A stretch of 48,535 nt of DNA from a virus. The notes beneath the pieces are model-generated. The model saw only the letters and a list, made by a program, of their open reading frames with translations, did no database searches and was not told the DNA's origin. The stretch spans positions 1-48,535 of IMG/VR virus record IMGVR_UViG_3300021389_002246. One strand, 5' to 3'. Below, in pieces: positions 21,247 to 47,707 of the stretch. The translations under genes were made by a program, and so were the position numbers. Within the stretch, counting starts at the first letter, position 1; each line of letters starts with the position of its first letter.

Positions 21247-21834
21247 ATGTTAATACCAACAGTAATTGAGACAACAGGCAGAGGCGAACGTGCATACGAC
21301 ATTTACAGTCGTTTGCTTAAAGATCGTATTGTAATGCTTAACGGAGAAGTTAACGACCATACAGCAAATTTAGTAGTTGCACAAATGCTATTTTTGGAAT
21401 CACAAAATAGTGCAGAAGATATTAATTTTTACATTAATAGTCCAGGTGGTGCAGTAACTTCGGGACTAGGTATATATGACACAATGCAATTTATTAAATC
21501 TCCAGTAAGCACAATTGTAATGGGTCAAGCATGTAGCATGGGTAGTTTCCTTGCTATGGCAGGTGAGCCGGGCAAACGTTTAGTATTGCCAAATTCACGT
21601 ACAATGATTCACCAACCAAGCGGTGGTGCAGGCGGACAAGCAACTGATATGCAAATTCAAGTTGAAGAGATTCTTAAAATGAAAAAGAACCTAACAGAAA
21701 TTTATGTTAAACATAATAGTGTAGGTAAAACATATGAAGAATTGGCATCAGCTATGGAACGTGATAATTTTATGTCAGCACAAGAAGCCGTAGATTTTGG
21801 CCTAGCAGATAAGGTTATTGTTCGAAAAGCATAA
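21247..21834 (+). CDS. clpP: ClpP protease subunit
   Basis: ClpP forms the barrel-shaped serine protease that degrades proteins fed in by ClpX or ClpA. The catalytic triad is visible: Ser97 in GQACSMGSF, His122 in [10 protein letters not shown] and Asp173 in MERDNFMSA. Length (195) equals the bacterial enzyme after short propeptide loss, so it should be active. Both matching unfoldases (24911 and 45452) and the adaptor ClpS (27489) are in this window. AGGAG precedes the start. Confidence 0.96.
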
Positions 21835-21856
21835 TATAATTGTAATACTGTATTTG

Positions 21857-21864
21857 CATAAATA
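21857..21864 (+). promoter_or_regulatory. Late promoter motif, leaderless arrangement
   Basis: CATAAATA ends only 5 nt before the next ATG, so a transcript starting at the usual distance would have almost no leader. Confidence 0.55.
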
Positions 21865-21869
21865 ATAGT

Positions 21870-22559: not shown

Positions 22560-22582
22560 TATTTAAGTACCACCAAAAATAG

Positions 22583-22590: not shown

Positions 22591-22637
22591 TTAAGCAGTT
22601 CAAATATTAACTGTTTTTATATTAGATAAGGAATTTT

Positions 22638-22992: not shown

Positions 22993-24471
22993 ATGAAGTT
23001 ATTCAGCATCTGGACAATATTTGTAGCCTTATCTATAAGTGCTGTGGCGGCCTACTACAGCATTGTTGGACTTGTGGCTATTTTTGCTAGTGCTGTAATA
23101 CCGATTATTATCATGGGGTCTGTGCTAGAAGTAGGCAAGCTAACATCAGCTGTTTGGTTGCACATGAACTGGAAATCAGCTCCATTTTTAATTAAGACGT
23201 ATCTCACTATAGCCGTCGTTATGCTTATGTTTATTACGAGCATGGGTATCTTTGGATTTTTATCAAAAGCACACATTGAACAAACTAGTGCGGCTAGTGA
23301 GAACGTTGCCCAAATTGAACGAATTGAAGAAAGCATAGTAAGAAATAAATTAATTATTACCAAATCAGAAGATAAAATTATTAAATTAGAAGCAGTTGAT
23401 GTTTCTTTAGATGATGGAATACAAGATAAAATACGTATAGAGCAACAAAGAATTGAAAACGCATACACAGGTGTACAACCATCAATAGACGAACAGAATG
23501 CAATTATAGTTGCAGAAACTAAATCTAAAGCAAATGCTATAGCACCGTTTGAAACAGAATTAGCTAACATTATTAAAAAACTAGCATTAATGGATGAGTA
23601 TTCTGTTAATGGCGAGATTGAAAAAATGCAAGGACTATTGGGTGTTAGACAAGATGGTATACTTGGTTGGAATACTAGAGAAGCATTAAAGAAATTTAAA
23701 GAAGATAATAATAAAGCAAAAGGACTAGCAGGTTATCAGCTAAATAAAGTTAGAGAAGAATTTGATAATTCTGTTATCAAAGATGCTAGAGCTGAGATTA
23801 AAAGAATTAGAATGTTAGCAGAGCAACAGATTGCAGACTCTAATGCATTAATTACTAGGTTAAGAGCACAACTTGGACAAGGACAACAAGAAGATAATTC
23901 AGCGTTAATTACTTCACAACGTAATTTAATTACTGATTCTGAAGACAAGTTGGAATCACTTTACACTACAAAATATACACTAGAAGGTGAAAGTAGAAAA
24001 CTAGAAGCAGAAGTTGGACCTGTAAAATATATTGCAGAACTAATTTATGGTCAAGATCCAACCAGAAATGTCTTGGAAGAAACAGTAAGATATGTTATAC
24101 TAGTACTTGTATTTGTATTTGATCCTTTAGCAGTTGTACTTGTTCTTGCAGGAATATCTGGATTAGGATTACGCAAACCAATAAAGGAAATATATGAGCC
24201 AAAAAAAGAACCCAAAAAAAATGAAATTAGTACAGATACCAAAAATGTCGCCAGTATTAAGAAAAATGATTTGGGTACTAAAAAGGACAACAAGTCTACC
24301 AAAAAACCTGTTGTTCAAAATGAAGTACATGAAGAAGATATAATCCATGTTGATTCAAAAGGTAAGGAATATACAATTGATAAACATGGAAATAGAAAGT
24401 ATCTCATTGAACAACTACAATACGACCTCAACGACATATCAAAAAAATTACAACAACAAAAGAAAAATTAA
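22993..24471 (+). CDS. Large membrane protein with coiled coil and peptidoglycan-binding-like segment
   Basis: 492 residues. Three N-terminal hydrophobic segments (about 5-25, 27-50, 69-92), a long charged coiled coil (about 100-330) and another hydrophobic stretch near 355-385 before a Lys-rich tail. Inside the coil, GLLGVRQDGILGWNTREALK resembles the D-G-x-x-G-x-x-T core of PG_binding_1 domains, so the loop may touch cell wall material. It could act in envelope remodelling or host takeover; no specific family is known to me. Confidence 0.6.
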   Translation: MKLFSIWTIFVALSISAVAAYYSIVGLVAIFASAVIPIIIMGSVLEVGKLTSAVWLHMNWKSAPFLIKTYLTIAVVMLMFITSMGIFGFLSKAHIEQTSAASENVAQIERIEESIVRNKLIITKSEDKIIKLEAVDVSLDDGIQDKIRIEQQRIENAYTGVQPSIDEQNAIIVAETKSKANAIAPFETELANIIKKLALMDEYSVNGEIEKMQGLLGVRQDGILGWNTREALKKFKEDNNKAKGLAGYQLNKVREEFDNSVIKDARAEIKRIRMLAEQQIADSNALITRLRAQLGQGQQEDNSALITSQRNLITDSEDKLESLYTTKYTLEGESRKLEAEVGPVKYIAELIYGQDPTRNVLEETVRYVILVLVFVFDPLAVVLVLAGISGLGLRKPIKEIYEPKKEPKKNEISTDTKNVASIKKNDLGTKKDNKSTKKPVVQNEVHEEDIIHVDSKGKEYTIDKHGNRKYLIEQLQYDLNDISKKLQQQKKN

Positions 24472-24921
24472 ATGAAAATTGATAACAGTAGTTACACTGT
24501 AACACCCCCAGACCTTTATATGACAGAACATGGAATAAGTATTCTTATTTCAAGTACTAACAACGAACTAATTATACCAGTAAAAGAATTATTTGAAAAA
24601 TTTATAGCAACAAGCATTGTATTTCTTGTTCAAAACAAAAAAACAAATTCAGAAACATTACCATGGATGTGGAATGTATCTAAAACATGTGATTTTATGA
24701 TCATTGACGTAGATACTTGTGCATGGGAAGACATAATGGCAGGACTTTTAAAGTCAAAAGAAGAAGAAAATACTGTCCTATTTTACAGCGATAAATATAA
24801 GAGAAGAGAAACTGTAAAATTAATAAATGCTACAGGCACTAATCTAGTTGTGAGATCATTAGCTGATATAAACAACTATATAAAACTACAAATGAGCCCA
24901 GAATATTTTAATGAATCCTAG
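24472..24921 (+). CDS. Hypothetical protein
   Basis: 149 residues with an alpha/beta look (FMIIDVDTCAWEDIMAGLL; ENTVLFYSDKYKRR) that recalls receiver-like or Rossmann-type folds, but no motif is decisive. It begins directly after the membrane gene and overlaps clpX by 11 nt. Function unknown. Confidence 0.55.
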   Translation: MKIDNSSYTVTPPDLYMTEHGISILISSTNNELIIPVKELFEKFIATSIVFLVQNKKTNSETLPWMWNVSKTCDFMIIDVDTCAWEDIMAGLLKSKEEENTVLFYSDKYKRRETVKLINATGTNLVVRSLADINNYIKLQMSPEYFNES

Positions 24922-26125
24922 TAACACCATATGTAATTTTTGTAATAAAGACACAACGCAAGTAAAAAAACTACTAGCGGGTGAGAATGGCACCCACATA
25001 TGTAGTGACTGTGTGGTGCTTTGTTATGGTATTGTTAAAGATGCTACAACAAATGCTATACAAAAAGATCGCAGTAAAAAACTCGAAGTACTTACCCCTA
25101 GACAAATACATAACGATCTAAACAAGCATGTAATTAGTCAAGATCGTGCAAAAAAGACTTTGAGTGTAGCAATATATAATCATTATAAAAGAATATCATC
25201 AAATACAAAAACAAAATTACAAAAAAGCAATGTATTATTAGCAGGACCTACAGGAACTGGTAAAACACTAATGGCTCAAACACTTGCAGATTTTTTAGGA
25301 GTACCAATGGTAGTCACTGATGCAACAGTTCTTACTGAAAGTGGATATGCAGGTGACGATGCAGAAGTTCTAATACACAAATTATTTCAGGCAGCAGACC
25401 ATAAAAAAGAACGTGCTGAACATGGTATTATATATGTAGATGAAATTGACAAAAAAGCAAAGCGTAATGACTATGTTAGTTTAAGCAGAGACGTATCTGG
25501 AGAAGGTGTGCAACAGAGCCTTTTAAAGCTCATGGAAGGTACTATAGTACCGGTTCCGAACAAACCGCAACATAACCCGGAGAAGGTGGATATTGATACC
25601 CGTAACATACTATTTGTAGTAGGTGGAGCCTTTGTTGGCCTACAAGATGTTGTGGTTAACAGGCTTGGTAAAGCAAAGATAGGATTTAACGACGATTTAG
25701 ACGCCGATGTAGAACAGTGGGAAAAGCACTTACAAACACGTGATTTAGTGAAATATGGACTTATACCCGAATTTGTGGGTAGATTACCGTCTGTAAACGT
25801 CCTTAGCCCCTTAAATAAGAACGATCTTGTACGCATACTAACTGAACCTGTTGATAGTATTATAGACCAAATAAAAGAGCTTTTTCTACTTGACAAAATA
25901 CAAATAGAGTTTACAATAACAGCATTGGAAGAAATAGCTAATATTGCCATAGAAGAAGAATTAGGTGCTAGAGGATTACGCAAGATATTAGATCAAGCAC
26001 TATTAGAAACGCAATATCAGTTACCAGAATTATATAAAAATGGAGTACGTAAAATTATTATAAATGAACAAGTTATATCTAGAAACGCTAAGCCACAGTA
26101 CATTAAAGGTGACAATGCAGAATAG
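24911..26125 (+). CDS. clpX: ClpX unfoldase
   Basis: Hexameric AAA+ unfoldase that recognises tagged proteins, including ssrA-tagged ones, and threads them into ClpP. The 404 residues start with the zinc-binding domain (CNFCNKD ... CSDC), then Walker A AGPTGTGKT, pore loop GYAGDDAE, Walker B IIYVDEID, a KIGFND docking loop for ClpP, IPEFVGRLP and sensor 2 GARGLRKI. E. coli ClpX has 424 residues. The first bases overlap the previous gene and the last 11 overlap infC. Confidence 0.97.
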   Translation: MNPSNTICNFCNKDTTQVKKLLAGENGTHICSDCVVLCYGIVKDATTNAIQKDRSKKLEVLTPRQIHNDLNKHVISQDRAKKTLSVAIYNHYKRISSNTKTKLQKSNVLLAGPTGTGKTLMAQTLADFLGVPMVVTDATVLTESGYAGDDAEVLIHKLFQAADHKKERAEHGIIYVDEIDKKAKRNDYVSLSRDVSGEGVQQSLLKLMEGTIVPVPNKPQHNPEKVDIDTRNILFVVGGAFVGLQDVVVNRLGKAKIGFNDDLDADVEQWEKHLQTRDLVKYGLIPEFVGRLPSVNVLSPLNKNDLVRILTEPVDSIIDQIKELFLLDKIQIEFTITALEEIANIAIEEELGARGLRKILDQALLETQYQLPELYKNGVRKIIINEQVISRNAKPQYIKGDNAE

Positions 26126-26663
26126 AAATAAAGGATATAAACAACGTAATAAAGGACCGTTTGTAATCTCAAACGAACGTATAAGAGCAAAAGAAGTTAG
26201 AGTAAACTTTCCAGACGGTGAAAGCCAGGTACTGTCTTTGAAAGATGCTTTAGATGAAGCAAAGTCACTGTATTTAGATTTAGTGTTGATAGCTGAAAAG
26301 GCAGATCCACCAGTTTGTAAAATAATTGATCTAAACAAACATTTGTACTCATTAAAGCAAAAAGAAAAACTGGCTAAAAAGAAACAACGTGAAAGCGTTG
26401 TAGAGACCAAAGAAATACGTATGGGACTAAATATTGATTCGCATGATTTAGAAACTAAGGCTAAAGCAGCTCGTAAATTTTTGGATAAAAATAACAAAGT
26501 AACAGTTACAGTTGTTTTACGTGGTAGAGAACGTGGAAGGCAAGATCTTGCAAGAGAGTTGCTAAATACATTTGCATACTTGTTAGAAGTAGAATATGAA
26601 CAAATCTCATCGCAGAACAATCGTGTATCTAGAAAAATAGAAGGAAAAAATGGGAAACTATAA
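26115..26663 (+). CDS. infC: Translation initiation factor IF-3
   Basis: IF-3 binds the 30S subunit, blocks premature 50S joining and checks the start codon. Both domains are present: N-terminal ISNERIRAKEVRVNFPDGES to EKADPPVCKIIDLNKHLYS, a Lys-rich linker, and C-terminal KEIRMGLNIDSHDLETK with RGRERGRQDLARELL. At 182 residues it is full length (E. coli 180). ATG 26115 with AAAGGT is chosen over an upstream extension at 26064 inside clpX. It overlaps clpX and rpsU, placing three host-machinery genes in one transcript. Confidence 0.95.
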   Translation: MQNRNKGYKQRNKGPFVISNERIRAKEVRVNFPDGESQVLSLKDALDEAKSLYLDLVLIAEKADPPVCKIIDLNKHLYSLKQKEKLAKKKQRESVVETKEIRMGLNIDSHDLETKAKAARKFLDKNNKVTVTVVLRGRERGRQDLARELLNTFAYLLEVEYEQISSQNNRVSRKIEGKNGKL

Positions 26664-26925
26664 CAACAATAGAACTAATAATAAACGTAACGACAAACCT
26701 CAGTTTGGTAATGGACTATCTGTAGAAGTTAGAAATGGCAATGTAGAACAAGCTATTAGAAAACTTAAGAAGCTAGTTATGAAAACTGGACTCATGAATG
26801 AAGTACGCGAACGCAGATATTTTGTTAGTAATACTGAAAAAAGACTTAAAGCAGAGGCGGCAGGCCGAGCTAGAAGACGTAGAGAAATAGCCAAAGATTC
26901 TGTAGAGAAGAAAAGGCTATACTAA
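26650..26925 (+). CDS. rpsU: Ribosomal protein bS21
   Basis: bS21 sits near the mRNA/anti-Shine-Dalgarno region of the 30S subunit and affects initiation. The core VEVRNGNVEQAIRKLKKLV ... VRERRYFV ... RRRREIAKDSVEKKRLY matches the family, including the terminal RLY. The 91 residues carry an extra Asn/Arg-rich head of about 22 residues. Phage-borne bS21 is known in pelagiphages. Placed beside IF-3, it suggests replacement of host initiation factors on the ribosome. Confidence 0.95.
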   Translation: MGNYNNNRTNNKRNDKPQFGNGLSVEVRNGNVEQAIRKLKKLVMKTGLMNEVRERRYFVSNTEKRLKAEAAGRARRRREIAKDSVEKKRLY

Positions 26926-26967: not shown

Positions 26968-27052
26968 TGTATACAACAGGACTGATTCCTACCGTATACA
27001 TAGAACGCCGAAAGGGTTCTAAATAATCTTGCTTAATATAAGGAGAAAAGAT
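26968..27052 (+). promoter_or_regulatory. Probable ROSE-like RNA thermometer in hsp20 leader
   Basis: Three stem-loops precede the heat-shock gene: TGTATAC/GTATACA enclosing AGGA/TCCT (26968-27000); TAGAAC/GTTCTA with CC/GG and a GAAA tetraloop (27001-27021); and CTTGCT (27028-27033) opposite AGGAG (27041-27045) around a 7-nt loop. In the last, UGCU/AGGA would pair with an internal G-G mismatch, the hallmark of ROSE thermometers that hide the ribosome site of small heat-shock genes until warmed. The order, with the anti-Shine-Dalgarno hairpin last, also fits ROSE. Confidence 0.65.
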
Positions 27053-27475
27053 ATGACTAGATTAACAACACTAAATCTTCCAGATTTTTATAAAACTACA
27101 ATAGGATTTGATAGTATGTTTGATGAGATGCAAAATGCATTTGCAACAAACACAGGCGGTTACCCACCTTACAATATTGTAAAGGAAAGTGACACTAGCT
27201 ATTCAATTAGCCTAGCAGTAGCAGGTTTTAACAAAGACGAAATAAAAATCGAACAAGACGGTAATACACTTTCAATTAATGCTGAAAAGAAACCAATCGA
27301 GGAAGAGATTGAATATTTACACAAAGGCATTGGAACTAGAAACTTTACAAAAGAATTTAGTTTAGCTGATTATGTAGAAGTAACATCGTCAAAACTAGAT
27401 AATGGTATCTTAGTAGTTACATTGGAACAAAATATTCCAGACGAAAAGAAACCACGTACTATTAACATCGACTAA
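27053..27475 (+). CDS. Small heat-shock protein, Hsp20/IbpA family
   Basis: ATP-independent chaperone that holds unfolding proteins for later refolding or degradation. The 140 residues show YPPYNI, the alpha-crystallin core (SLAVAGFNKDEIKIEQ), YLHKGIGTRNF, FSLADYVEV, LDNGILVV and IPDEKKPRTI, matching alphaproteobacterial IbpA closely. ATG 27053 is chosen because AGGAG lies 7 nt upstream; the frame is open to 27029 but that would include the ribosome site. It is preceded by a likely RNA thermometer and followed by clpS. Confidence 0.95.
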   Translation: MTRLTTLNLPDFYKTTIGFDSMFDEMQNAFATNTGGYPPYNIVKESDTSYSISLAVAGFNKDEIKIEQDGNTLSINAEKKPIEEEIEYLHKGIGTRNFTKEFSLADYVEVTSSKLDNGILVVTLEQNIPDEKKPRTINID

Positions 27476-27488: not shown

Positions 27489-27791
27489 ATGACTCAAGCA
27501 TCAACAAGTAGCGTAGCAGATATTGTTAAATTAAAAACACCATCACGATACAATGTAGTATTGTTAAATGATGATTCTACTCCGCAGGAGTTTGTAGTAA
27601 ATATCTTACAGACGATTTTTAATAGATCGACAGAACAGGCAAACTCTGTGATGCTTGAGGTACACGAAAAAGGCCGAGGCATAGCAGGCACATACAGTTA
27701 CGAAGTAGCTGAACAAAAATGTGTAGAAACAATAACTAACGCAAGACAAAGTCAATATCCGTTAGATGTTACAATAGAAAAAGCAGAATAA
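27489..27791 (+). CDS. clpS: ClpS adaptor
   Basis: ClpS binds the N-domain of ClpA and delivers proteins with destabilising N-terminal residues (N-end rule). The 100 residues include YNVVLLNDDSTPQEFVV, where NDD and the following hydrophobics form the N-degron pocket, MLEVHEKGRG with the conserved His, and a C-terminal strand LDVTIEKAE. The N-terminal 17 residues are the flexible arm. Its partner ClpA is encoded at 45452. Confidence 0.95.
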   Translation: MTQASTSSVADIVKLKTPSRYNVVLLNDDSTPQEFVVNILQTIFNRSTEQANSVMLEVHEKGRGIAGTYSYEVAEQKCVETITNARQSQYPLDVTIEKAE

Positions 27792-28369: not shown

Positions 28370-28764
28370 TGACAAAAGTAGAAGAAATAAGACAAGAAGT
28401 TAAAGAAGAGTACAAAGATAGTCAGATGACCAAAGCTGGTAAACTGGCAATGGAACTGGGTGCTGAGCGTAAACGTCTTAAAAAAGAATTGTCTGAATTA
28501 CAATCCGAGGTAGAAGATTTAACACCTACTACACCAGTTGGTACAGTTGACTGGTATGTAAAATGGGCAGCAATGGCCTTTGCAGTTTGCGGTGTATTTT
28601 TAATTAGTGCAGGATTAGTGTTTTGGGGCCAAGTAGCATATATGATTAGTAGTGTTGGTTGGATATTTGTAGGAATGGCTTGGGGTGATAGAGCCATTAT
28701 GATTGGTAGTGCGATTACAGGTACAGCAGTCGCAATGAATTTTGTTCAAGGATTATTAATATGA
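28369..28764 (+). CDS. Membrane protein with N-terminal coiled coil
   Basis: 131 residues: a charged helix (ERKRLKKELSELQSEVEDL) followed by about three hydrophobic segments (WAAMAFAVCGVFLISAGLVF; VAYMISSVGWIFVGMAW; IMIGSAITGTAVAMNF). It overlaps the GATase-like and sufE genes by 1 and 4 nt. Function unknown; a membrane anchor for a complex is possible. Confidence 0.6.
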   Translation: MTKVEEIRQEVKEEYKDSQMTKAGKLAMELGAERKRLKKELSELQSEVEDLTPTTPVGTVDWYVKWAAMAFAVCGVFLISAGLVFWGQVAYMISSVGWIFVGMAWGDRAIMIGSAITGTAVAMNFVQGLLI

Positions 28765-29156
28765 AAATAAATGAATGGGCAGATAACTTAAACATGTTTG
28801 AAGATGGAACAGAAAGACTTGCCTATTTAGTTGAACTTGCAAAAAAGTCAACAACACTACCTAAAGAACTACGTACAGATGATAGACTTGTAGGTGGATG
28901 TATGTCAAAGATTTGGATTGATGTAGGAGTTGTAGAAGACAAAGTAAAAGTATACTATGACAGTGATGCAATGATTACTAAAGGTATTACTAGTATTGTT
29001 GCTGATTGTTTTACAGATATTCTGATTGATGAAGCAAAACAAATCAAACACGAAGATTTTCAAAGTTTAAACATTGCACAACTACTTACACAACAACGCA
29101 GAAACGGATTAGGAAACTTAATTGAAACTATAAGACAAAAGGTATATGTATTATGA
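28761..29156 (+). CDS. sufE: SufE-type sulfur acceptor protein
   Basis: SufE accepts persulfide sulfur from a cysteine desulfurase and passes it to Fe-S cluster assembly. Family residues are clear: RLAYLVELAKKS, LVGGCMSKIW with the acceptor Cys47, YYDSDAMITKGI, and RRNGLGNLIETI at the C-terminus. At 131 residues it is close to the usual length (about 138). No desulfurase (SufS/IscS) appears in the window, so it would draw on the host enzyme. The scaffold IscU is encoded at 35001. Confidence 0.93.
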   Translation: MKINEWADNLNMFEDGTERLAYLVELAKKSTTLPKELRTDDRLVGGCMSKIWIDVGVVEDKVKVYYDSDAMITKGITSIVADCFTDILIDEAKQIKHEDFQSLNIAQLLTQQRRNGLGNLIETIRQKVYVL

Positions 29157-29563: not shown

Positions 29564-29708
29564 GAATCAAGTAAGAAACGAATATAGAGAACATAGAAAA
29601 GACCCAGTATTTGCTGAGCTTTGGCCAGACACAAATAGAGCTTTTTATGAATGGTGTTCGCAATATTTAGATTACATGCACATAAAGGATAAAAGAGATG
29701 AGAATTGA
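29556..29708 (+). CDS. Probable small protein with CTG start
   Basis: A frame of 50 codons ([20 protein letters not shown]... then [20 protein letters not shown]) fills an otherwise empty 134 nt and looks like real protein. Upstream of CTG 29556 a stop in the same frame leaves no ATG, GTG or TTG, while AAGGG (29543-29547) stands at ribosome-site distance. It overlaps guaC by 11 nt. The alternative is +1 frameshifting from the previous gene. Confidence 0.45.
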
Positions 29709-30867
29709 AACAGAAACTAAACTAGATTATACAGATGTATTGATTAGACCAAAGCGTAGTGTATTAGGCTCACGCAAGGATGTAGACTTAGCTCGTGGAT
29801 TTACTTTTAGAAATTATGAAGGTGATACGTTAGATGGATATAGACATTATAAAGGTGTACCAATTATAGCCGCTAATATGGATGGAGTAGGAACATTTCA
29901 AATAGCAGATAAAATTGCACAACAAAGAATGTTTACATGCTTGGTTAAAACATATGCAGTAAGTGAATTAATTGAATACTTTGATTATGCAGAATGGACA
30001 TTACCACCAGAAGATAAAAATTTAAGAAAAGAACATGTAGCAATGAGTATTGGTATTACTGATACAGACGCAGCAAAGTTCAATGCAGTATATAAAATGA
30101 CAAAAGGTAATTTAAAGTATGTTTGCATTGATGTAGCAAATGGATACAGTGAACGTTTTGGAAACTTTGTAAGAAAGTTTAGAAAACAATATCCGAATGT
30201 AGTAATTATAGCAGGTAACGTGGTTACCGGAGAGATGACAGAGGAGTTAATTTTAAATGGAGCAGATATTGTTAAAGTCGGAATTGGACCAGGAAGCGTG
30301 TGTACAACACGAATCCAAACAGGAGTCGGGTATCCGCAACTTAGTGCAGTCATTGAGTGTGCAGATGCGGCACATGGACTTGGTGGACATATTATCGCTG
30401 ATGGGGGCTGTAACTCTAGTGGTGATGTGGCTAAAGCATTTGCTGGCGGGGCCGATTTTGTAATGCTAGGCGGAATGCTTGCAGGACATGATGAAGGCGG
30501 CGGCAATATTATTACCAAACATTATAAAACAAACGAATTAGAATACGAAGTAGGCGAACACTTGGATAATCAGAAATGTAAAATTGAAGAAAAAAAGTTT
30601 GTACAATTTTATGGAATGAGCAGTGATGCAGCCAACACAAAACATTTTGGTGGACTAAAAGACTATCGTGCAAGCGAAGGACGAGAAGTATTAGTTCCAT
30701 ACAGAGGTGAAGTACAATACACCGTACAAGCAATCCTAGGTGGGTTGCGTAGTACTTGTACATACGCAGGTGCAAGTAGATTAAAGCACTTGATGAGATG
30801 TGCAACATTTGTAATGGTTAATAATCAATTTAACCGTACATACGAAAGCACAACAACAAAACTCTAG
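29698..30867 (+). CDS. guaC: GMP reductase
   Basis: Converts GMP to IMP with NADPH in purine salvage. Similarity to E. coli GuaC is strong throughout: [56 protein letters not shown] with the catalytic Cys, [14 protein letters not shown] and [17 protein letters not shown]. It lacks the CBS pair of IMP dehydrogenase. At 389 residues it exceeds the usual 347, mainly through an insert after the GGMLAGH loop and an extended [13 protein letters not shown] region. Rebalancing purine pools for AT-rich DNA synthesis is inferred. Confidence 0.95.
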
Positions 30868-31804: not shown

Positions 31805-31812
31805 TATAAATA
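31805..31812 (+). promoter_or_regulatory. Late promoter motif, leaderless arrangement
   Basis: TATAAATA, the exact T4 late consensus, ends 5 nt before ATG 31818. No ribosome site is visible. Confidence 0.65.
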
Positions 31813-31817: not shown

Positions 31818-32795
31818 ATGAGTAAAGTACATCTATTATCAGAAATAATAACAAAGTTGCAGAACTTTAGTACTCAGGATGAGAAACTAGAGCTTCTGCA
31901 CACCTATCATAAAGAACCTATATTAAAACGAATAATAACTATAGCATATAACCCATGGATTGATTTTGGAATGCAAGATTTTGTTCCAAGACGACATGGC
32001 AAACAATTTGGTATGGGTTTAACAAAGTTCTTACATCTTCTAACAGACATCATAGATGAAAAATATGATGAAAAAGAAAAGAATTTTTCTTGTCAAATGG
32101 CAATGAATCACATAGACGAACGTGATGCTGGACTATTTCTTAGTTTGCTAAAACAAGAGTTAGACTTAGGACTAGAACCCGAAACAATTAATGCAGTATG
32201 GCCAGGATTAATTATGGTGTATCCACTAAGTACACCAACTGTAGCAGATTATAAAACATTTCACAAATACCCAGCAGCAGTACAGCCTATTAGTAGAGGA
32301 CTTCGAGTTAATGTAATTGTACATAAAGGCATAGTAAGTTACAAAGATAAAGAAGGTAATGATATTGAAGGTTGGAATATATATGACGAACAATTTGTTA
32401 ATTTAGCACAAAACAATAGTACAGTATTTGACGGTCATGCAGTTGTGGCCAATGGAATAACCATCGTAGAAACTGATAATCAAAAAGTATTAGAAGCAGA
32501 CTCAGAAAATATTAAGTTTGTATTTTGGGATATTATACGTTATGATGGATTCGTAAAAGGTGAAGATACACGTATAGGTTACAACTGGAGGCATAATGGT
32601 CTTGAGCATATGATTATTCTTGCATTTGATAAAAACAAAACACCTTGTTATGACATAGTTAAAGCTGATTTAGTAGGAAGTGATGAACAGTTAGAATTAA
32701 CTGTTAAAAAGTTTGCAAATAAATGTGTTATAAAACGGTTAGATGGAACATGGATACGTGGAGAAGATCCAACCCAAGTTATTTACGAGTCTTAA
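31818..32795 (+). CDS. DNA-ligase-like protein lacking the catalytic lysine
   Basis: The 325-residue protein follows the layout of T4-type ATP ligases: a helical N-terminal domain (LLSEIITKLQNFSTQDEKLEL; LKRIITIAYNPWIDFG), then adenylation-like strands. At the position of KxDGxR stands PISRGLRVNVIV without Lys; VFDGHAVV replaces the LDGE motif, and FVFWDII and CVIKRLDG occupy later motif positions. It is probably a non-enzymatic ligase relative used in binding DNA or as regulator. The true ligase is at 18077. Homology is by pattern and needs structural confirmation. The last 17 nt overlap the reverse-strand lipase gene. Confidence 0.55.
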   Translation: MSKVHLLSEIITKLQNFSTQDEKLELLHTYHKEPILKRIITIAYNPWIDFGMQDFVPRRHGKQFGMGLTKFLHLLTDIIDEKYDEKEKNFSCQMAMNHIDERDAGLFLSLLKQELDLGLEPETINAVWPGLIMVYPLSTPTVADYKTFHKYPAAVQPISRGLRVNVIVHKGIVSYKDKEGNDIEGWNIYDEQFVNLAQNNSTVFDGHAVVANGITIVETDNQKVLEADSENIKFVFWDIIRYDGFVKGEDTRIGYNWRHNGLEHMIILAFDKNKTPCYDIVKADLVGSDEQLELTVKKFANKCVIKRLDGTWIRGEDPTQVIYES

Positions 32796-33941: not shown

Positions 33942-34478
33942 ATGACCAAAGAAAATAGCAATGTACCAGCGGTTACATTTAAAGTACGAGTACAAGACAA
34001 ATCTAGCAGTGAAACAAATTCATGTGAGATTGTACCTTCAAAGTGGGCAACTTTAACTACAGATGAAATATTTAAAGATAAGTTAATAGTAGTGTTTAGT
34101 TTACCCGGTGCATTTACACCAACGTGTAGTACATTCCAGTTACCTGGATTTGAACAAAAAGCACAAGATTTTTATGATGTAGGAGTAAGCGACATTTATT
34201 GTATAAGTGTTAATGATTCATTTGTAATGAATGCATGGCGTGATGCAAACAATCTTAAAAATATTAAAGTACTACCAGACGGTAATGGAACATTTACAGA
34301 AGGTATGGGTCAATTAATTGACATGAGTGTCGTAGGATTCAATAAGCGTAGCAGACGCTATGCAATGATTGTTGAGAACGGTGTAGTTCTTAAAATGTTT
34401 ATTGAACCTGATAGTTCAGCAGAAGATCCAGATCCATATGGTGAAACAACACCAGAAAATGTTTTTGCATCATTATAG
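33942..34478 (+). CDS. Peroxiredoxin, Prx5 type
   Basis: Thiol peroxidase of 178 residues that reduces hydrogen peroxide and organic hydroperoxides. The active site PGAFTPTCS carries peroxidatic Cys62; VYCIS-like strand (DIYCISVND), FVMNAW and ending match Prx5. Electrons would come from glutaredoxin or glutathione. It stands behind a consensus host promoter and so is probably expressed early, protecting Fe-S enzymes from oxidation. AAGGAGT precedes the start. Confidence 0.93.
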   Translation: MTKENSNVPAVTFKVRVQDKSSSETNSCEIVPSKWATLTTDEIFKDKLIVVFSLPGAFTPTCSTFQLPGFEQKAQDFYDVGVSDIYCISVNDSFVMNAWRDANNLKNIKVLPDGNGTFTEGMGQLIDMSVVGFNKRSRRYAMIVENGVVLKMFIEPDSSAEDPDPYGETTPENVFASL

Positions 34479-35000: not shown

Positions 35001-35411
35001 ATGGCATATAGCGAAAAAGTGCTAGACCATTACAATAATCCAAGAAATGTAGGTAAGTTTGACCCCAAGGAAGATAATATCGGAACTGGAATGGTAGGCG
35101 CACCTGCATGTGGTGACGTAATGCGTTTGCAAATTAAAGTCACGGAAGATGGCATTATTGAAGATGCAAAATTTAAAACATACGGTTGTGGAAGTGCAAT
35201 TGCTAGTTCAAGTATGGTAACAACCATGCTTAAAGGTATGACGCTAGACGAAGCACAGGAAATTAAAAACACAACAATTGTTGAAGAATTAGCATTACCA
35301 CCAGTAAAAATCCACTGTAGCGTATTGGCAGAAGATGCCATAAAAGCCGCAGTTAGAGATTACGGCGATAAAAAACAAAAAATAAACGCAAAACCGGTTG
35401 ACATAACTTAG
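35001..35411 (+). CDS. iscU: IscU Fe-S cluster scaffold
   Basis: IscU builds [2Fe-2S] and [4Fe-4S] clusters and hands them to target enzymes. The three ligand cysteines match the family numbering exactly: Cys37 (GAPACGDVM, with the neighbouring Asp), Cys63 (YGCGSAIASSS) and Cys106 (KIHCSVLAEDAI). The N-terminal LDHYNNPRNVGKF is typical. Length 136 compares with 128 in E. coli. With sufE at 28761 the phage carries a scaffold and a sulfur carrier but no desulfurase. Its last codons contain a -35 box for the tmRNA promoter. Confidence 0.96.
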   Translation: MAYSEKVLDHYNNPRNVGKFDPKEDNIGTGMVGAPACGDVMRLQIKVTEDGIIEDAKFKTYGCGSAIASSSMVTTMLKGMTLDEAQEIKNTTIVEELALPPVKIHCSVLAEDAIKAAVRDYGDKKQKINAKPVDIT

Positions 35412-35430
35412 TTTTGTGTTATCATAAATA
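35398..35430 (+). promoter_or_regulatory. Overlapping sigma70 and late promoters for tmRNA
   Basis: TTGACA (35398-35403), 16 nt, TATCAT (35420-35425), overlapped by late motif CATAAATA (35423-35430). Both would start transcription near 35432-35436, where the tmRNA sequence begins. The pairing suggests expression early and late. Confidence 0.65.
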
Positions 35431-35435
35431 ACATA

Positions 35436-35735
35436 TAACGTTGAAACTTGACTCAACGCATTTCAGGACCTCGGGGCAGTACCGAGCAGCTCCACCATAA
35501 ACACATTTAGATGAGATATTGAATCACTGCATGGGTGTGTTTATGATGGGGCTGAACTAGGATCGACTGGGTGTTAATAGGTAAGCGGAGTTATCGGGAT
35601 CTAAGCACCGTTATCGCGAAGAAAATTTATAATTGCAAATGACAATTATTCGCCAGAAATGGCATTAGCGGCTTAGTTTAACTAAGCACGTAGGGGTTTT
35701 GCAAGTTGAGCCTGGCAACAGAATTCAACTTGCAC
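35436..35735 (+). ncRNA. ssrA: tmRNA, circularly permuted two-piece form
   Basis: The acceptor piece comes first and ends CAGCTCC-A-CCA at 35497, with T-arm CTCGG/CCGAG. An intervening segment is flanked by ATAAACACA/TGTGTTTAT, a 9-bp pair that brings the ends together. The coding piece starts GGGGCTGA at 35548, and GGGGCTG pairs fully with CAGCTCC. The tag frame from GCA 35635 reads ANDNYSPEMALAA then TAG (35674-35676). This permuted order is known from alphaproteobacteria. The product rescues stalled ribosomes with host SmpB and marks peptides for ClpXP/ClpAP. The 3' end is set at the GCAAGTTGA/TTCAACTTGC stem. Confidence 0.93.
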
Positions 35736-35787
35736 TAGATTATAATTAATATATTTTAGTATAAAAATAAAAATAATAGGAATAATT

Positions 35788-39328: not shown

Positions 39329-40567
39329 ATGGATAAAACCACTAAGCCAGTTAATAAACATAGCGATACTTGGTGTCCAATTCCATTTAACGCTATTAGC
39401 TTTCACCCCACAGGTGCATTTACTCGTTGTATGATGAGTGACACTCCAATGGGTGAAAGTTATGATAGCGAACAAATGAAAAAACTACGTCAAGATATGC
39501 TTGACGGCAAGTGGGATAAAACAGGGTGTGAAACCTGTTATAAAAAAGAACAACATGGAAATATTAGTCAAAGACAAAAATGGCTATTGCGTAACCCACA
39601 TGATTTTAAAAGTCAAGAAGGATATAATAATCCACAAGTAACAGGAAATCCAGTAAATCATATGTTTATTAATTACAGTAATATCTGTAATTTTAAATGT
39701 AGAATGTGTAGTCCTTTGTTTAGTAATAGTCTTATACCAGAACATAAACATTTAGCAGCCATTGATAACATTGTTCCTAAATCTAAACTCGATAATAACT
39801 TAATTAAAAATAGAAATTTTATAAATGATACTTTGCGAAATGATCCAAGTAAGTTAGATAGTGTAACAAGTATTTGGATAACAGGCGGTGAACCTTTTAT
39901 AGATAATAATGTTTATGATCTTGTAGGCATATTAGATCAACATGATAAATCATTTGAGACAGATTTAGTTGTTACAACAAATGGATCAAAGTTAGATTTA
40001 GACAGATTACAAAGTTTTGAAACATTAAAAAGTTTTGAACTTGATTTAAGTTTAGATGCACCTAGTACTATGTTTGAATATATGCGTAGTGCAGGAGTAT
40101 TTACTTGGGCAGAAATGGAAAAAGTATTAGCTGATTTAAAGTATTTTGCACAAGTAAATAGTAGTTGGTTTAATTTTTCATTAAATGCTAGTATACAAGC
40201 ATATAATTTTGATACTATACTGCAACTTAATAATTTAGCTATAGAATGCGGTGCTAGTAATAATTCAAGACAATTACTAAGTCCAAGAGTATTTAGAACA
40301 GATGTATTACCGTTAGAAATGAGACAAGAAGAATTAAAAAAATTAAAAAACTATAAAGTTGTAGATCAGATAAGTTCGCAAAGATTACAAAGAACAATTG
40401 ACGATGCTTATTTAAATTTATCAAAACCACAAGCAGATCGTGATGCGGTTAGAAAGTTTGTAAGAAGAACAATAGAAACAGACAAGTATAGAAATATGTA
40501 CCTATATGATTACAATAAGCAATTAGGTGACTGGGTTTATAGCACTTATGACCATTACTTTACTTGA
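39329..40567 (+). CDS. Radical SAM protein with N-terminal twitch domain
   Basis: 412 residues. The N-terminus carries a twitch/SPASM-type cysteine set (WCPIPFNAISFHPTGAFTRC ... GCETCYKKE), the core has CNFKCRMC (CX3CX2C), WITGGEPF and LVVTTNGSKL. The auxiliary-cluster domain precedes the core, the reverse order of the protein at 13141. Proteins of this kind occur in marine phages and in surface-polysaccharide clusters without known substrate. It is the third radical SAM system here. The endolysin gene ends 2 nt before it. Confidence 0.85.
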   Translation: MDKTTKPVNKHSDTWCPIPFNAISFHPTGAFTRCMMSDTPMGESYDSEQMKKLRQDMLDGKWDKTGCETCYKKEQHGNISQRQKWLLRNPHDFKSQEGYNNPQVTGNPVNHMFINYSNICNFKCRMCSPLFSNSLIPEHKHLAAIDNIVPKSKLDNNLIKNRNFINDTLRNDPSKLDSVTSIWITGGEPFIDNNVYDLVGILDQHDKSFETDLVVTTNGSKLDLDRLQSFETLKSFELDLSLDAPSTMFEYMRSAGVFTWAEMEKVLADLKYFAQVNSSWFNFSLNASIQAYNFDTILQLNNLAIECGASNNSRQLLSPRVFRTDVLPLEMRQEELKKLKNYKVVDQISSQRLQRTIDDAYLNLSKPQADRDAVRKFVRRTIETDKYRNMYLYDYNKQLGDWVYSTYDHYFT

Positions 40568-42893: not shown

Positions 42894-43421
42894 ATGGATC
42901 AAAATTATATTTTAAACAACCTAAGAGCAAACACTAGTAGAGATAGTGCATTAGAAACACTAATGGACTTTGAACGTGTAATGGATACTGCCAACATTTA
43001 TGCATATAAAAACTGGATGGAAGGCGAAATTGTCGAAGGTCCACATATTGATAGATACTGGGTAACAGTTACATTAATGTATTATAAAAATCAAATGCCA
43101 GATCCAGAAGGTGCAATGAGATTAACAAGAAATGGTTGTAAGGTATATTATGCGGAAGAAGAATATATTACGGCTGCAAAACTAAAAAGTCCAGACGACA
43201 GTGAGGGACCAGACGGAGCGGACGGTAAAAGACCAGGCCAATCACGTGCTAAAAGAGTTATTAAGCCTATTTGGTTAGTAACAATAGTAATGCCTAGAAA
43301 ATATATGAATGATGTAGAAGCAGCTAGATTGCGTGTTGATGATCAAGATATTAACAGTAACGCAGTTGAACAAGCATACACAGATGAAATATCTGCGGCA
43401 GATGAGGGATTAGACTTATGA
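42894..43421 (+). CDS. Conserved phage protein, probably virion-associated
   Basis: 175 residues with IDRYWVTVTLMYYKNQMPDP then TRNGCKVYYAEEEYI, an acidic Gly-rich loop (DDSEGPDGADGKRPGQ) and VTIVMPRKYM. The pattern recurs in T4-like marine phages next to structural genes. The late promoter before it supports a virion or assembly role. Overlaps the next gene by 4 nt. Confidence 0.6.
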   Translation: MDQNYILNNLRANTSRDSALETLMDFERVMDTANIYAYKNWMEGEIVEGPHIDRYWVTVTLMYYKNQMPDPEGAMRLTRNGCKVYYAEEEYITAAKLKSPDDSEGPDGADGKRPGQSRAKRVIKPIWLVTIVMPRKYMNDVEAARLRVDDQDINSNAVEQAYTDEISAADEGLDL

Positions 43422-44363: not shown

Positions 44364-44742
44364 TTGTGCAACTGCACCACAGGTAATTTCATACAAAGCA
44401 GAACCTATTGAAAAACCAGCACTAGTATTACCTGCCGCAGGCACACTAGAATTAAGAGATGCTGATTGGGATATTATTACACCAGAAGCATTAGGAACAA
44501 TATTTGATAAGTTAAAAGAAGATGGCGAACCTGTAGTTATATATGCATTAACAACAGAAGGCTACGAGCAACTTGCATTAAATATGGCAGATGTAATTAA
44601 ATTGTTATCAGAACAAAAAGCAATTATTGAAGCATACAAAGAATATTACGAACAAACAGAAAAAAATATAGATGACCACAACAGTAAAACACTACAAGTT
44701 CCTGTTGAAAAAACAGGAATACTCGACAAATTTCTTAATTAA
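44293..44742 (+). CDS. Lipoprotein, o-spanin candidate
   Basis: 149 residues with a lipoprotein signal: basic head, VLALLILTIFLSSC, with the LSSC lipobox placing lipidated Cys near residue 25. The mature part is acidic and has a helical segment (LLSEQKAIIEAYKEYYEQTE). It overlaps the upstream coiled-coil gene by 71 nt in a different frame. It would sit in the outer membrane and pair with that protein. It is longer than classical Rz1. Confidence 0.6.
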   Translation: MLHKNQKPILNVLALLILTIFLSSCATAPQVISYKAEPIEKPALVLPAAGTLELRDADWDIITPEALGTIFDKLKEDGEPVVIYALTTEGYEQLALNMADVIKLLSEQKAIIEAYKEYYEQTEKNIDDHNSKTLQVPVEKTGILDKFLN

Positions 44743-44769
44743 AAACACTAACGTTTAAGGCTCTTCATA

Positions 44770-45459
44770 ATGTCAATAAATACTACGATGAAGAAAATGA
44801 ACAACCCTTGGTTTATTCTTGGCCTAGAACCAGGTGCTACATTAAAAGAGGTCAAAACAGCATACAAAAAATTAGCTCTAAAAAATCATCCAGACAAGGG
44901 CGGTACTATCGCCGACTGGTTGGCTATAAGTGATGCATACGATAATATAACAGAAAAGAAACATATTCCTATTGTAAAATCACCAGATGTACAAATGGTA
45001 GATTTAGCATTAACAATAGAACAACAAATTAATGGAATAAATGATTATATTCAAATTGATGATTTATATTTAAAAGTAAACATTCCAGCTGGTGTATTAG
45101 TAGGTGATAAATTCAAAGTAACCGATAAAAGAAAGAAATATATAATAAATGTAAAAGAAAAGGCAAATAAAGTCTTTACAAGATCAGGAAATAATATTAT
45201 AATGTATAAGACATTAGATGTTATTGATGTAATGAAACTAAATTCATTTATGATAATAACACCAACAGGTGAGCGTTGTGAAATTGATATTCCAACGGAC
45301 ACAGTAACAGGAAGTATAATAGTGCTAAAGGGACATGGGTTATACAACAGAAAGAGCAAAAGAAAAGGAAATTTAAGGATACATATAAAGGTGGACATAC
45401 CTTACTTAAATAGTACTAACATGGAAGAATTTATAACGAGGTTAAGGACAAATGACTGA
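44770..45459 (+). CDS. DnaJ-like co-chaperone
   Basis: The N-terminal J domain (PWFILGLEPGATLKEVKTAYK ending NHPDKGG) has the HPD motif needed to stimulate DnaK. The Gly/Phe and zinc-finger regions of DnaJ are absent; the rest (LTIEQQINGINDYIQID ... PTGERCEIDIPTDTVTG) matches the beta-sandwich substrate-binding domains, with a final helix. At 229 residues it is a shortened type-II-like J protein. It directly precedes clpA with an 8-nt overlap, so folding and degradation functions are coupled. Confidence 0.88.
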   Translation: MSINTTMKKMNNPWFILGLEPGATLKEVKTAYKKLALKNHPDKGGTIADWLAISDAYDNITEKKHIPIVKSPDVQMVDLALTIEQQINGINDYIQIDDLYLKVNIPAGVLVGDKFKVTDKRKKYIINVKEKANKVFTRSGNNIIMYKTLDVIDVMKLNSFMIITPTGERCEIDIPTDTVTGSIIVLKGHGLYNRKSKRKGNLRIHIKVDIPYLNSTNMEEFITRLRTND

Positions 45460-47707
45460 TATTGAAAAAATTGTAATAACTGCTATCAATTTAGCAAAAA
45501 AATTAAAACACGAATATGTAACAATAGAACATATAGCCGCAGTTATATTAGATGATCCACAAGTGCAAGCAATGTGTTTTGAAGTAAATGCAGATTTTGA
45601 AAGTTTGCAAATTGCATTAGTAGAATATTTAGAAAAAGAATGTGTTGAATTAGTTAAGAATGATGCTCAAGAACCAAACCCTTTTAAAACACAAATGCTT
45701 GAACGAGTATTTAATAGAGCATTAACACAAGCATTATTTCAAGGTAAGAAACATCTTAACCAACTAGATTTAGTATTAAGTATACTAGGTGAAGAAAATA
45801 GTATAGCGGCACAGTACGCAGAACAGTTAGGTCTTAGTAAAAATAAAGTTATAAAATGGATGCAAGAAACACAAGCACAAGAAAATGAGCAAATATTTGG
45901 CCCAGTTGATGGATTAGGTGATCCTCGTAGACCTCAAGGTGCAATGACACCTAGAGATGTATTAGCACAGTTTTGTACTAACATGAATGAAGCATATGAT
46001 GAATATGATGATTTAATTGGTCGCAGACATGAATTAAAAGAATTAGTACAAACAGTTGCACGTAAGAAAAAATCTAATGCTATTCTAACTGGTGGTAGTG
46101 GTGTTGGTAAAACAGCAGTCGTACAAGGACTAGCAAAACTTATAGTTGAAGGAAATGTTCCTGATATTATTAAAGATAAAGTTGTATGGGAATTAGATAT
46201 GACTAAGTTAGTTGCTGGTACAAAATACAGAGGCGACTTTGAAGAACGTATGAAACAATTAGGCGAAGCACTAATACAAGAACCTAATATTATTTTATTT
46301 GTAGACGAAATACATACAATTATTGGTGCAGGCAGTACAAATGGTACTATGGACGCAGGTAATATGTTAAAGCCGGCATTAAGCAATGGTAAACTAAAAG
46401 TAATAGGTGCTACAACAGATGAAGAATATAGAAAAGTATTTGAAAAAGAAACAGCACTAGCACGTAGGTTTACAAAAGTTGTAGTAGACGAACCTAACAC
46501 AAAAGACGCAAAAGAAGTTGTATATAACTCTTTAATATCATATGAAGCATTTCATGATGTTACTATTAGACCAGAAGCAGCAGATCTTTCAGTAGAATTA
46601 AGTAACCAATATATTTTTAATAAAAAACTACCAGACAAAGCATTTGATATTATTGATAGAGCATGTGCATTTAATAAAATATTACCAGTTGAAGAACGCT
46701 TAGACATATTAGGCGAAGATGAAATTAAAGCAGAGGTGGCAAGACTAACTGGCATTCCAAAAGAACATTTAGGAAAAGCAGAAGATGAAGCAACAAATAA
46801 AAAGCACTCAGAAGTTAGAGAGTTTTTAGAAAGCACAGTATTTGGGCAACAATCAGCAATTGATTGTGTAGTTGATAGTATTACAGTTAGTATGGCAGGA
46901 CTTAAAGATCCTATTAAACCTATTGGAAGTTATCTACTTACAGGACCAACAGGTGTTGGTAAAACAGAACTTGCCAAACGTTTAGCACAGTCAATGAGCA
47001 TGAAACTATGTAGATACGATATGGCAGAATATCAAGAGCGCCACACAGTATCAAAACTAATTGGTTCACCTCCAGGATATGTAGGACATGGTGATGGTAA
47101 AGCAGGTGATGGTTTACTTATTAATCAATTAGAAGATAATCCAAATTGTGTACTATTATTAGACGAAGTAGAAAAAGCACACCCAGATTTAATGAGCGTA
47201 TTATTAAGTTTATTAGATGAAGGTACAATTACATCAAGTACAGGTAAAGTAGTAAGTGCCAAGAACGCTATTGTTATTATGACTAGTAACCTTGGAGCCA
47301 GAGACGCGGCAGTTAAAAGTATTGGCTTTAATGAAGAAACATATAATGCAAAAGCAGTAGATGACGCAGTAAACAATTACTTTGCACCAGAGTTCCGTAA
47401 CAGACTAGACGGTATTGTTAAGTTTAATTCTTTAACAAGAAACGATATGAAGCGTATTGTTATTAAGTTCTTAGGTGAGCTTGAAACATATGTGGAAGGC
47501 AGACACATTGTAATTAATTGGGGACCCGAGCTATTAGCAATGCTAGAAGACAAAGGATATGATCCTACAATGGGTGCAAGGCCACTTGCAAGATTAATTA
47601 ATGAAAGTGTTAAACTTCCGTTAGCAAAACATTTACTAGATCATAACAAAGACTTTACATTAGATTTAGACTGGAAAAAAGACGCACTAACTATTAATGG
47701 AAAATAA
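45452..47707 (+). CDS. clpA: ClpA-type unfoldase
   Basis: Double-ring AAA+ unfoldase feeding ClpP. The 751 residues (E. coli ClpA 758) have the Clp N-domain (ITAINLAKKLKHEYVTIEHI), a first AAA module with Walker A GGSGVGKT and VDEIHTIIGAG, and a second with GPTGVGKT and LLDEVEKAHPD. There is no ClpB middle coiled-coil domain between them. The ClpP-docking loop KSIGFN is present. It could also bind ClpS (27489). Start is inside the dnaJ-like gene. Confidence 0.95.
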   Translation: MTDIEKIVITAINLAKKLKHEYVTIEHIAAVILDDPQVQAMCFEVNADFESLQIALVEYLEKECVELVKNDAQEPNPFKTQMLERVFNRALTQALFQGKKHLNQLDLVLSILGEENSIAAQYAEQLGLSKNKVIKWMQETQAQENEQIFGPVDGLGDPRRPQGAMTPRDVLAQFCTNMNEAYDEYDDLIGRRHELKELVQTVARKKKSNAILTGGSGVGKTAVVQGLAKLIVEGNVPDIIKDKVVWELDMTKLVAGTKYRGDFEERMKQLGEALIQEPNIILFVDEIHTIIGAGSTNGTMDAGNMLKPALSNGKLKVIGATTDEEYRKVFEKETALARRFTKVVVDEPNTKDAKEVVYNSLISYEAFHDVTIRPEAADLSVELSNQYIFNKKLPDKAFDIIDRACAFNKILPVEERLDILGEDEIKAEVARLTGIPKEHLGKAEDEATNKKHSEVREFLESTVFGQQSAIDCVVDSITVSMAGLKDPIKPIGSYLLTGPTGVGKTELAKRLAQSMSMKLCRYDMAEYQERHTVSKLIGSPPGYVGHGDGKAGDGLLINQLEDNPNCVLLLDEVEKAHPDLMSVLLSLLDEGTITSSTGKVVSAKNAIVIMTSNLGARDAAVKSIGFNEETYNAKAVDDAVNNYFAPEFRNRLDGIVKFNSLTRNDMKRIVIKFLGELETYVEGRHIVINWGPELLAMLEDKGYDPTMGARPLARLINESVKLPLAKHLLDHNKDFTLDLDWKKDALTINGK

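Follow-up and report, generated by a model that had tools for sequence, protein, structure and literature searches.

How does a virus make use of protein-quality-control genes of its own? The question is raised by a stretch of viral DNA of 48,535 nucleotides (virus record IMGVR_UViG_3300021389_002246, positions 1 to 48,535; "the window" below means the whole of it), for which a preliminary description proposed a kit that turns a stalled ribosome into degradation: a transfer-messenger RNA (tmRNA), the peptidase ClpP, the unfoldases ClpX and ClpA, and the adaptor ClpS. All five are present on the same strand and span 26 kb of the window. Together with IF-3, bS21, Hsp20 and DnaJ they form an island, on one strand and in a recurring order, in a clade of uncultured relatives of jumbo phages such as PA5oct of Pseudomonas. 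The reading I prefer, at a probability of about 0.5, is that of a long-resident, virus-borne island for protein quality control and translation, in which the tmRNA would do the tagging and ClpX, its entrance rebuilt, would mainly choose other substrates. Of the proposed kit, the near-complete and recurring parts list with its intact motifs stands; the closed loop is not supported, as no SmpB was found and four of the six tag-reading residues of ClpX are changed. The argument rests on the following features:

21247..21834, plus strand: ClpP serine peptidase subunit, 195 residues, Ser97/His122/Asp173 (profiles, triad)
24911..26125, plus strand: ClpX unfoldase, 404 residues; zinc finger, Walker A and B motifs and IGF loop intact, tag-reading elements altered
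25343..25354, plus strand: ClpX pore-1 loop GYAG (GYVG in 49/49 alphaproteobacterial ClpX)
25475..25495, plus strand: ClpX pore-2 segment VSLSRDV, with Ser for Thr199
25553..25582, plus strand: ClpX segment VPNKPQHNPE replacing the RKH loop (GGRKHP), 3 residues shorter
25679..25687, plus strand: ClpX IGF loop for docking to ClpP, residues 257-259 (kept in 28/28 clade ClpX)
27489..27791, plus strand: ClpS N-degron adaptor, 100 residues; NDD (27-29) and His59 present, Gln33 in place of the gatekeeper Met
35402..35767, plus strand: permuted two-piece tmRNA (ssrA) of alphaproteobacterial type (ARAGORN, Rfam)
35487..35497, plus strand: tmRNA 3' acceptor strand with encoded CCA (CAGCTCC-A-CCA); U70 opposite G3
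35548..35554, plus strand: tmRNA 5' acceptor strand GGGGCTG
35635..35676, plus strand: tag reading frame ANDNYSPEMALAA-stop, resume codon GCA
44770..45459, plus strand: DnaJ-like co-chaperone (J domain and C-terminal domain), overlapping the clpA start (profiles)
45452..47707, plus strand: ClpA double-ring unfoldase, 751 residues; pore loops KYRG (D1) and GYVG (D2) and IGF intact

Genes were called with ARAGORN and Rfam (RNA) and with Pfam, NCBIfam and PHROG profiles and matching to PDB (proteins). The window has a G+C content of about 34% and no end repeats, the lack of which commonly indicates a fragment. The parts named in the preliminary description were recovered throughout. ClpX exceeds both of its cut-offs (NF003745, 484 bits against 359; TIGR00382, 434 against 371) and has the zinc finger, Walker motifs and IGF loop of a ClpX. 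ClpP has the family profile and the Ser-His-Asp triad of an S14 peptidase, with the three catalytic residues at the positions first assigned to them; it scores 266 bits with Pfam CLP_protease, 302 with NF001368 (cut-off 249) and 285 with TIGR00493, under the equivalog cut-off of 308.6, and its start coincides with that of mature E. coli ClpP. ClpA combines an N domain, two AAA+ rings and the IGL/IGF loop, here an IGF at residues 624-626. Its best-scoring model is TIGR02639, aligned over positions 4-720 of 734, and its best PDB match is E. coli ClpA (E 1e-163), N-domain structures being weakly matched (E about 2e-6). For ClpS, all 8 NCBIfam models matched are ClpS models, each under its cut-off (best 105.6 against 149 and 100.5 against 112 bits), and the best PDB match (E 1e-24) is 3dnj, which I take to be a ClpS of the Caulobacter type. 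SmpB and SspB, described as missing, were searched for in the window and neither was found.

Can the phage ClpX read the tag of the phage tmRNA? Statements on cited articles refer here and below to excerpts of them. The ssrA readers of E. coli ClpX are Tyr153, Val154, Thr199, Val202, Arg228 and His230; H230A and V202A strongly increase the Michaelis constant (KM), R228A changes the specificity of the enzyme, and the human ClpX, in which positions 199 and 230 are Leu, fails to degrade ssrA substrates (PMC7652416). I aligned 28 ClpX of the clade (from 30 unique sequences including that of the window, the distant L053 and L054 being set apart) with 49 parsed from 50 alphaproteobacterial loci supplied, mostly high scorers. 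While the six residues are invariant in all 49, four of them are altered in all 28: Val154 is replaced by Ala (27/28) or Ile (1/28), Thr199 by Ser (28/28), and Arg228 and His230 are, as aligned, lost with the RKH motif in every member, the loop being three residues shorter in 27. Only Tyr153 and Val202 are left of the six contacts that would mark an ssrA-reading ClpX. The entrance of the clade thus reads GYAG, SRDV and VPNKPxxNPE where the alphaproteobacterial one reads GYVG, TRDV and GGRKHP, and most members share the replacement segment VPNKPxxNPE, which speaks for a new function and against decay.

Of the 147 columns invariant in the 49 alphaproteobacterial sequences, 96 persist in 27 or all 28 of the clade members and 22 are changed in every one. 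Fifteen of these 22 sit in the three tag-reading regions, where 28 of the 147 columns lie (p 2.7e-8; p 0.017 without the RKH region); the limits of the regions were chosen after the alignment had been seen, so that these p values are descriptive. An AlphaFold2 model places a short loop at the RKH position, between strands 212-216 and 225-229; with a mean predicted local distance difference test score (pLDDT) of 81, and less than 50 in the pore-2 (186-193) and IGF (256-262) stretches, it is informative on the short loop only. In the ClpX tree the clade of 28 has a support of 100/100 on a stem of 1.81, and L044 pairs with L040 (100/95); the tree has long branches and unsettled bootstraps, and conclusions are drawn from that clade and that pair only. 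Among other relatives of jumbo size the RKH region reads RKN in Phosso, Atu_ph07 and L116 and is kept as RKH in L117 and L054, and PA5oct has neither.

As four of the six tag readers are changed throughout the clade, a closed loop from phage tmRNA to phage ClpXP becomes doubtful. In such a loop the tmRNA would tag products on stalled ribosomes and phage ClpXP and ClpAP would destroy them, redirecting proteolysis and recycling amino acids. All parts except SmpB and SspB are indeed present and recur together, the tag ends in ALAA, the docking loops are intact, and amino-acid recycling has been proposed for phage Melnitz (PMC9004378). However, beside the changed entrance there is a distant relative (L054, record G045) whose ClpX has both GYVG and RKH; no tmRNA was detected in the 105 kb of that record, possibly a fragment. 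I therefore regard the closed loop as possible but unlikely, and as a less likely form now than the island reading preferred here.

Do the parts belong together? The viral sample derives from a scan for ClpS, which gave 58 viral loci; whole records were taken for 49 of them and, with the window, 50 were searched (2.84 Mb, mostly fragments and possibly incomplete; nine contigs shorter than 7 kb were omitted), ClpS being present in this set by construction. ClpX profiles match in 47 of the 50 records (44 above cut-off), ClpP-family profiles in 37, including G047 and G048 with a weak match only, and tmRNA models in 27 (26 above cut-off). The co-occurrence in relatives that the preliminary description had proposed to check is found in 12 of the 15 records with a full-length ClpA, the window included; in one of these, G009, ClpP is truncated by the contig end. 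The other three each fall short of one part: G012, which starts less than 2 kb before clpX, shows no ClpP, and G035 and G045 show no tmRNA. In 11 records, three of them 184-222 kb long, the parts keep their order and spacing, with ClpX at 3.2-4.5 kb, the tmRNA at 12.0-16.2 kb and ClpA at 23.7-28.6 kb from ClpP. The run ClpP-ClpX-IF3-bS21-Hsp20-ClpS recurs in ClpS loci down to about 50% ClpS identity, some members being undetected. This co-occurrence and conserved order argue that the set exceeds chance.

In the pairs listed, the ratio of nonsynonymous to synonymous substitution rates (dN/dS) of the four Clp genes is 0.05-0.25, and that of clpP against its 14 most similar relatives listed is 0.05-0.13. 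Three exceptions (ClpX of L001, 0.55; ClpS of L002, 2.0; ClpS of L003, 0.37) come from pairs of at least 95% identity with few changes. These ratios show that the four genes are under purifying selection and, with the conserved docking motifs, that the Clp machines are maintained. That the genes are neutral cargo, or the remnant of an attachment site, acquired by chance would agree with tmRNA genes often being integration sites of genomic islands (PMC11915505). Low dN/dS, conserved order and intact acceptor, CCA and tag in diverged tmRNA genes make this scarcely credible, and among the profiled genes of the window, about half of them, there is no integrase.

The ALAA-ending tmRNA of the preliminary description is now seen to be circularly permuted and in two pieces. 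ARAGORN reads its tag as ANDNYSPEMALAA, and Rfam scores it far above gathering (alpha_tmRNA 115.1 bits, gathering 50; tmRNA_permuted 114.5 bits, gathering 47); its tRNA-like domain with G3-U70, its CCA end and a tag ending in Ala-Ala are those of a permuted alpha-type tmRNA. Nine tRNAs are present besides it (ARAGORN). The G3-U70 pair and the encoded CCA occur in 24 of 24 parsed tmRNA genes (22 from the phage set, one from Phosso, one bacterial; 28 loci supplied, 4 unparsed), and all 25 tags read from the phage set (26 loci supplied) end in A-[LIM]-A-A. There are nine distinct phage tags across lineages, for example ANDNYSPEMALAA, ANNNYEPEMAMAA, ANYEPEMAIAA and AEDNFAIAA. The last of these, of 9 residues as against 13, belongs to one tmRNA sublineage (L072, L075, L083). 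With RF01849 the phage tmRNAs having full-length matches score 91-132 bits and the bacterial ones, among the matches listed, 195-313, which indicates that the phage genes have diverged. Between the tmRNA of the window and named phages no DNA similarity was found.

SmpB was found in none of the 50 viral records and in none of 6 named jumbo phage records, although the bacterial controls were positive; Phosso, whose record is described as a complete genome, has a tmRNA and shows no SmpB. The gene that would make a phage trans-translation system complete is thus missing from the records searched, and rescue would need the SmpB of the host. SspB, which would be needed for an SspB-delivered ClpXP, was likewise found in none of 23 phage records, with working positive controls.

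Should ribosome rescue be the sole selected role of the tmRNA, shielding phage translation from defence nucleases or host mRNA decay, the tag would serve any protease at hand and the Clp genes would be unrelated. The IF-3, bS21 and tRNA genes give the island a translation theme that accords with this, and G035 keeps its Clp genes with no tmRNA found. However, rescue by itself needs neither a tag frame kept across diverged tmRNAs nor the A-[LIM]-A-A end of every tag read, and I consider this explanation improbable. Reading through G035 between its Clp genes gives two tRNAs and no tmRNA, and as its ClpX (L044) pairs in the tree with that of a tmRNA bearer (L040), the absence resembles a loss.

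Which host would supply the missing parts? A FastTree of the tmRNAs, a quick run from which the Phosso gene (L168) was left out as it yielded no tag, puts the marine-style phage genes in one group with no clear host sister. A 20-base segment of the 5' tRNA-like part of the tmRNA matched 39 genomic stretches, of which 38 are titled Sphingomonadales or bear genus names that I take to belong there, and one Micavibrio; given the low G+C content of the window and the shortness of the motif, I do not take Sphingomonadales to be the host. EMALAA is also the end of the tag ANDNEMALAA in two alphaproteobacterial genomes of 1.4 Mb whose G+C content around that locus is about 34%; this is no more than a hint.

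ClpA stands in contrast to ClpX. Among 13 ClpA sequences GYVG, IGF and [KR]YRG are found in all 13, and KYRG in 12. E. coli ClpAP degrades ssrA-tagged proteins too, reading the Ala-Leu-Ala end (PMC12493166), which the tag of the window has. In ClpS the gatekeeper, a role described for Met40 (PMC12493166), is Met in 29 of 29 parsed alphaproteobacterial sequences (30 best-scoring loci supplied), whereas 34 phage sequences have Gln (17), Met (15), Val (1) or Phe (1).

ClpP bears on a further explanation, in which ClpX and ClpA would act as capsid or tail chaperones and ClpP as a head maturation protease. ClpP does also match PHROG head-maturation proteases, the PA5oct record marks its ClpP as detected by electrospray ionization tandem mass spectrometry (ESI-MS/MS), and roles in replication, assembly or as translocases have been suggested for jumbo phages (PMC6102473, PMC7824862). 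However, ClpP scores far higher as a true ClpP, the long records G010 and G028 have a second, weaker ClpP-like gene that may be the head protease, and the PA5oct mass-spectrometry note stands on ribonucleotide reductase (RNR) and thymidylate synthase as well, hence is no virion marker. A role in virion assembly is thus very unlikely.

Two candidate lines of evidence were discarded. At positions which I presume to form its hydrophobic docking pocket, the equivalent of position 60 is Asn in 25 of 25 phage ClpP; it varies among the 21 alphaproteobacterial ClpP located next to 30 ClpX loci, and is therefore uninformative on docking. The motif TATAAATA, presumably a T4-type late promoter box, occurs at 21230-21237 and 31805-31812, in both cases with an open reading frame starting a few bases further on, and one copy ends 9 bases before the clpP start; the window has only these 2 matches against 11.2 expected by chance, and I discarded the motif as evidence on timing. 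Separately, the ClpP of L030, L040, L043, L044 and L052 have a divergent C-terminal half (HRVSSGT..., 10 residues longer in the alignment) and an N-terminal half similar to the others, a recombination-like pattern.

How might the island work? Infection would leave broken or stop-less mRNAs, to which the phage tmRNA would respond, charged with alanine by way of its G3-U70 identity pair, with SmpB and EF-Tu of the host as its carriers. It would free stalled ribosomes for phage translation and append a tag ending in A-x-A-A, and the tagged products would be removed by phage ClpAP, with its KYR pore loop and intact docking loop, by host ClpXP, or by both. Phage ClpXP would be an active, ClpP-docking machine whose rebuilt entrance mainly selects substrates other than ssrA tags, and ClpS, its gatekeeper altered in the subclade of the window, would supply ClpAP with N-degron substrates. 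From the sequences I infer that SmpB is taken from the host, that ClpAP or host ClpXP reads the tag, that ClpX has new substrates and that the island brings a benefit during infection. More tentatively, and somewhat short of an even chance, tagging may be uncoupled from phage ClpXP, with ClpX a dedicated virus-specific unfoldase for a non-ssrA degron, its entrance largely conserved within the clade, and a branch of ClpAP, ClpS and tmRNA, which would maintain quality control, sharing the one viral ClpP. If true, one virus would have two differently aimed degradation branches on a single peptidase, and the clade would offer natural ClpX variants with altered degron choice. The sharp prediction is that phage ClpX reads the tag of the phage tmRNA poorly or not at all.

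Several observations weigh against this view. T199S by itself increases the KM of E. coli ClpX only about 4-fold (PMC7652416), and Tyr153 and Val202 are retained in the clade; given both, phage ClpX may still read the ssrA tag weakly. Thirteen of the 28 clade ClpX, including that of the window, have a His one position from the His230 column, and one HMMER alignment pairs this neighbouring His with His230. The 49 control ClpX were selected by motifs that include the Val202 stretch. ClpA, at 746 bits, is under its NCBIfam cut-off of 993, and ClpS likewise is under its cut-offs. An altered ClpX is found also in PA5oct, where no permuted tmRNA was found, and in G035, which shows no tmRNA, so that the change of the loop is not tied to owning a tmRNA; the tmRNA itself looks dispensable in at least one lineage. 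Finally, the tag and the ClpX of the phage may have adapted to each other through other contacts.

What else does the window hold? The following genes lie between or beside the main parts:

26064..26663, plus strand: translation initiation factor IF-3 (infC 141 bits, cut-off 60; phrog_9787)
26650..26925, plus strand: ribosomal protein bS21 (TIGR00030 45.8 bits, cut-off 28.95)
27029..27475, plus strand: Hsp20/IbpA-like small heat shock protein (phrog_432; NCBIfam IbpA 119.7 bits, under the cut-off of 212)
28761-29156: SufE-like sulfur acceptor (profile match under cut-off)
35001-35411: IscU scaffold (above cut-off), its frame overlapping the start of the tmRNA gene by 10 bases

On inspection the likelier start of IF-3 is at 26115, barely within the end of clpX. 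The SufE-like protein and IscU are parts of iron-sulfur cluster assembly. Three proteins have radical SAM domains (10816-11517, 13141-14211 and 39329-40567; Pfam above cut-off), and there are domain proteins of the IMP dehydrogenase/GMP reductase (29698-30867), redoxin (33942-34478) and NAD-binding oxidoreductase (12352-13134) kinds. Between clpP and clpX, 22993-24471 encodes a protein of 492 residues with, by eye, apparent membrane and coiled-coil stretches and with no match in Pfam or PHROG. A class 3 lipase domain protein is encoded on the minus strand at 32779-33543 of this otherwise mostly plus-strand fragment. Relatives of a structural protein (42894-43421) occur in 57 phage records, and 14 of the 15 of these listed are records of 284-322 kb.

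How does the island compare with known systems? Its gene order is largely that of PA5oct (Arenbergviridae), in whose 162-198 kb stretch 14 of 67 window proteins tested have matches, collinear with the window except for ClpP, with a minus-strand PhoH gene and the DnaJ-ClpA pair kept. PA5oct reads RNR-PAAR-ClpX-bS21-Hsp20-ClpS ... ClpP ... PhoH-structural-DnaJ-ClpA, DnaJ standing directly before ClpA. Unlike the window it gave no permuted tmRNA (stricter filters, permuted model only) and no IF-3 match within the two stretches examined, and its ClpX, 40% identical to that of the window, has a differently degenerate RKH loop. The Sinorhizobium jumbo phage Phosso (PV764938) has ClpP, ClpX, ClpA, ClpS and a permuted tmRNA, arranged as ClpX-IF3, bS21, Hsp20-TK-ClpS and DnaJ-deformylase-ClpA, a deformylase gene separating DnaJ from ClpA; neither SmpB nor SspB was found in it. 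Its ClpP is 67% identical to that of the window, and its ClpX retains Val154, Thr199 and the RKH loop length, with Asn for His230. A second Sinorhizobium jumbo phage, AP-J-162, is reported with six Clp open reading frames, one tmRNA, IF-3, S21, Hsp20 and DnaJ (PMC11242549); both are soil genomes of about 470 kb in which the parts are scattered, unlike in the window. From the PA5oct-like gene order and the presence of all five parts in Phosso it follows that the five-part set represents a variant form of a gene set already known from jumbo phages.

Other phages share smaller portions. Agrobacterium phage Atu_ph07 has ClpX-IF3, Hsp20-TK-ClpS and a ClpP 66% identical to that of the window; its reported Clp set has ClpA (gp292) and DnaJ (gp293) as neighbours by number and, beyond the window, ClpB (PMC6102473). 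It gave no tmRNA with the permuted model, and Table 1 of PMC11242549 gives none. GAP32 and XbC2 have IF3 and ClpS as neighbours, Vibrio phage 2.275.O has IF3-bS21 followed by a protein named L7/L12/ClpS-like, and ClpP, ClpS, ClpA or ClpX are reported from various jumbo phages (PMC7824862). At the DNA level the ClpP-ClpS block resembles named phages in short pieces only. The lytic methylophage Melnitz has, like the window, a two-piece tmRNA of alphaproteobacterial kin, but with a glutamine riboswitch (PMC9004378), for which Rfam at gathering scores gives no match in the window; of two-piece tmRNAs in marine phages it has been proposed that they tag proteins of the host (PMC9004378). In the excerpts of the earlier literature used here, the Clp proteins and the tmRNAs of phages appear apart or in parallel, not as one system, and no article of the open-access literature searched matched a phrase such as "phage-encoded ClpX" exactly, which is not proof of absence.

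With the trans-translation and Clp systems of E. coli and Caulobacter the window shares the same parts and the same catalytic and docking motifs, whereas no SmpB or SspB was found in it, the tag loops of its ClpX are changed and the gatekeeper of its ClpS is Gln instead of Met. Here the Clp genes and the tmRNA form one conserved, ordered island; the gene set as such is known, and the clade-wide change of the tag readers of ClpX is the new observation.

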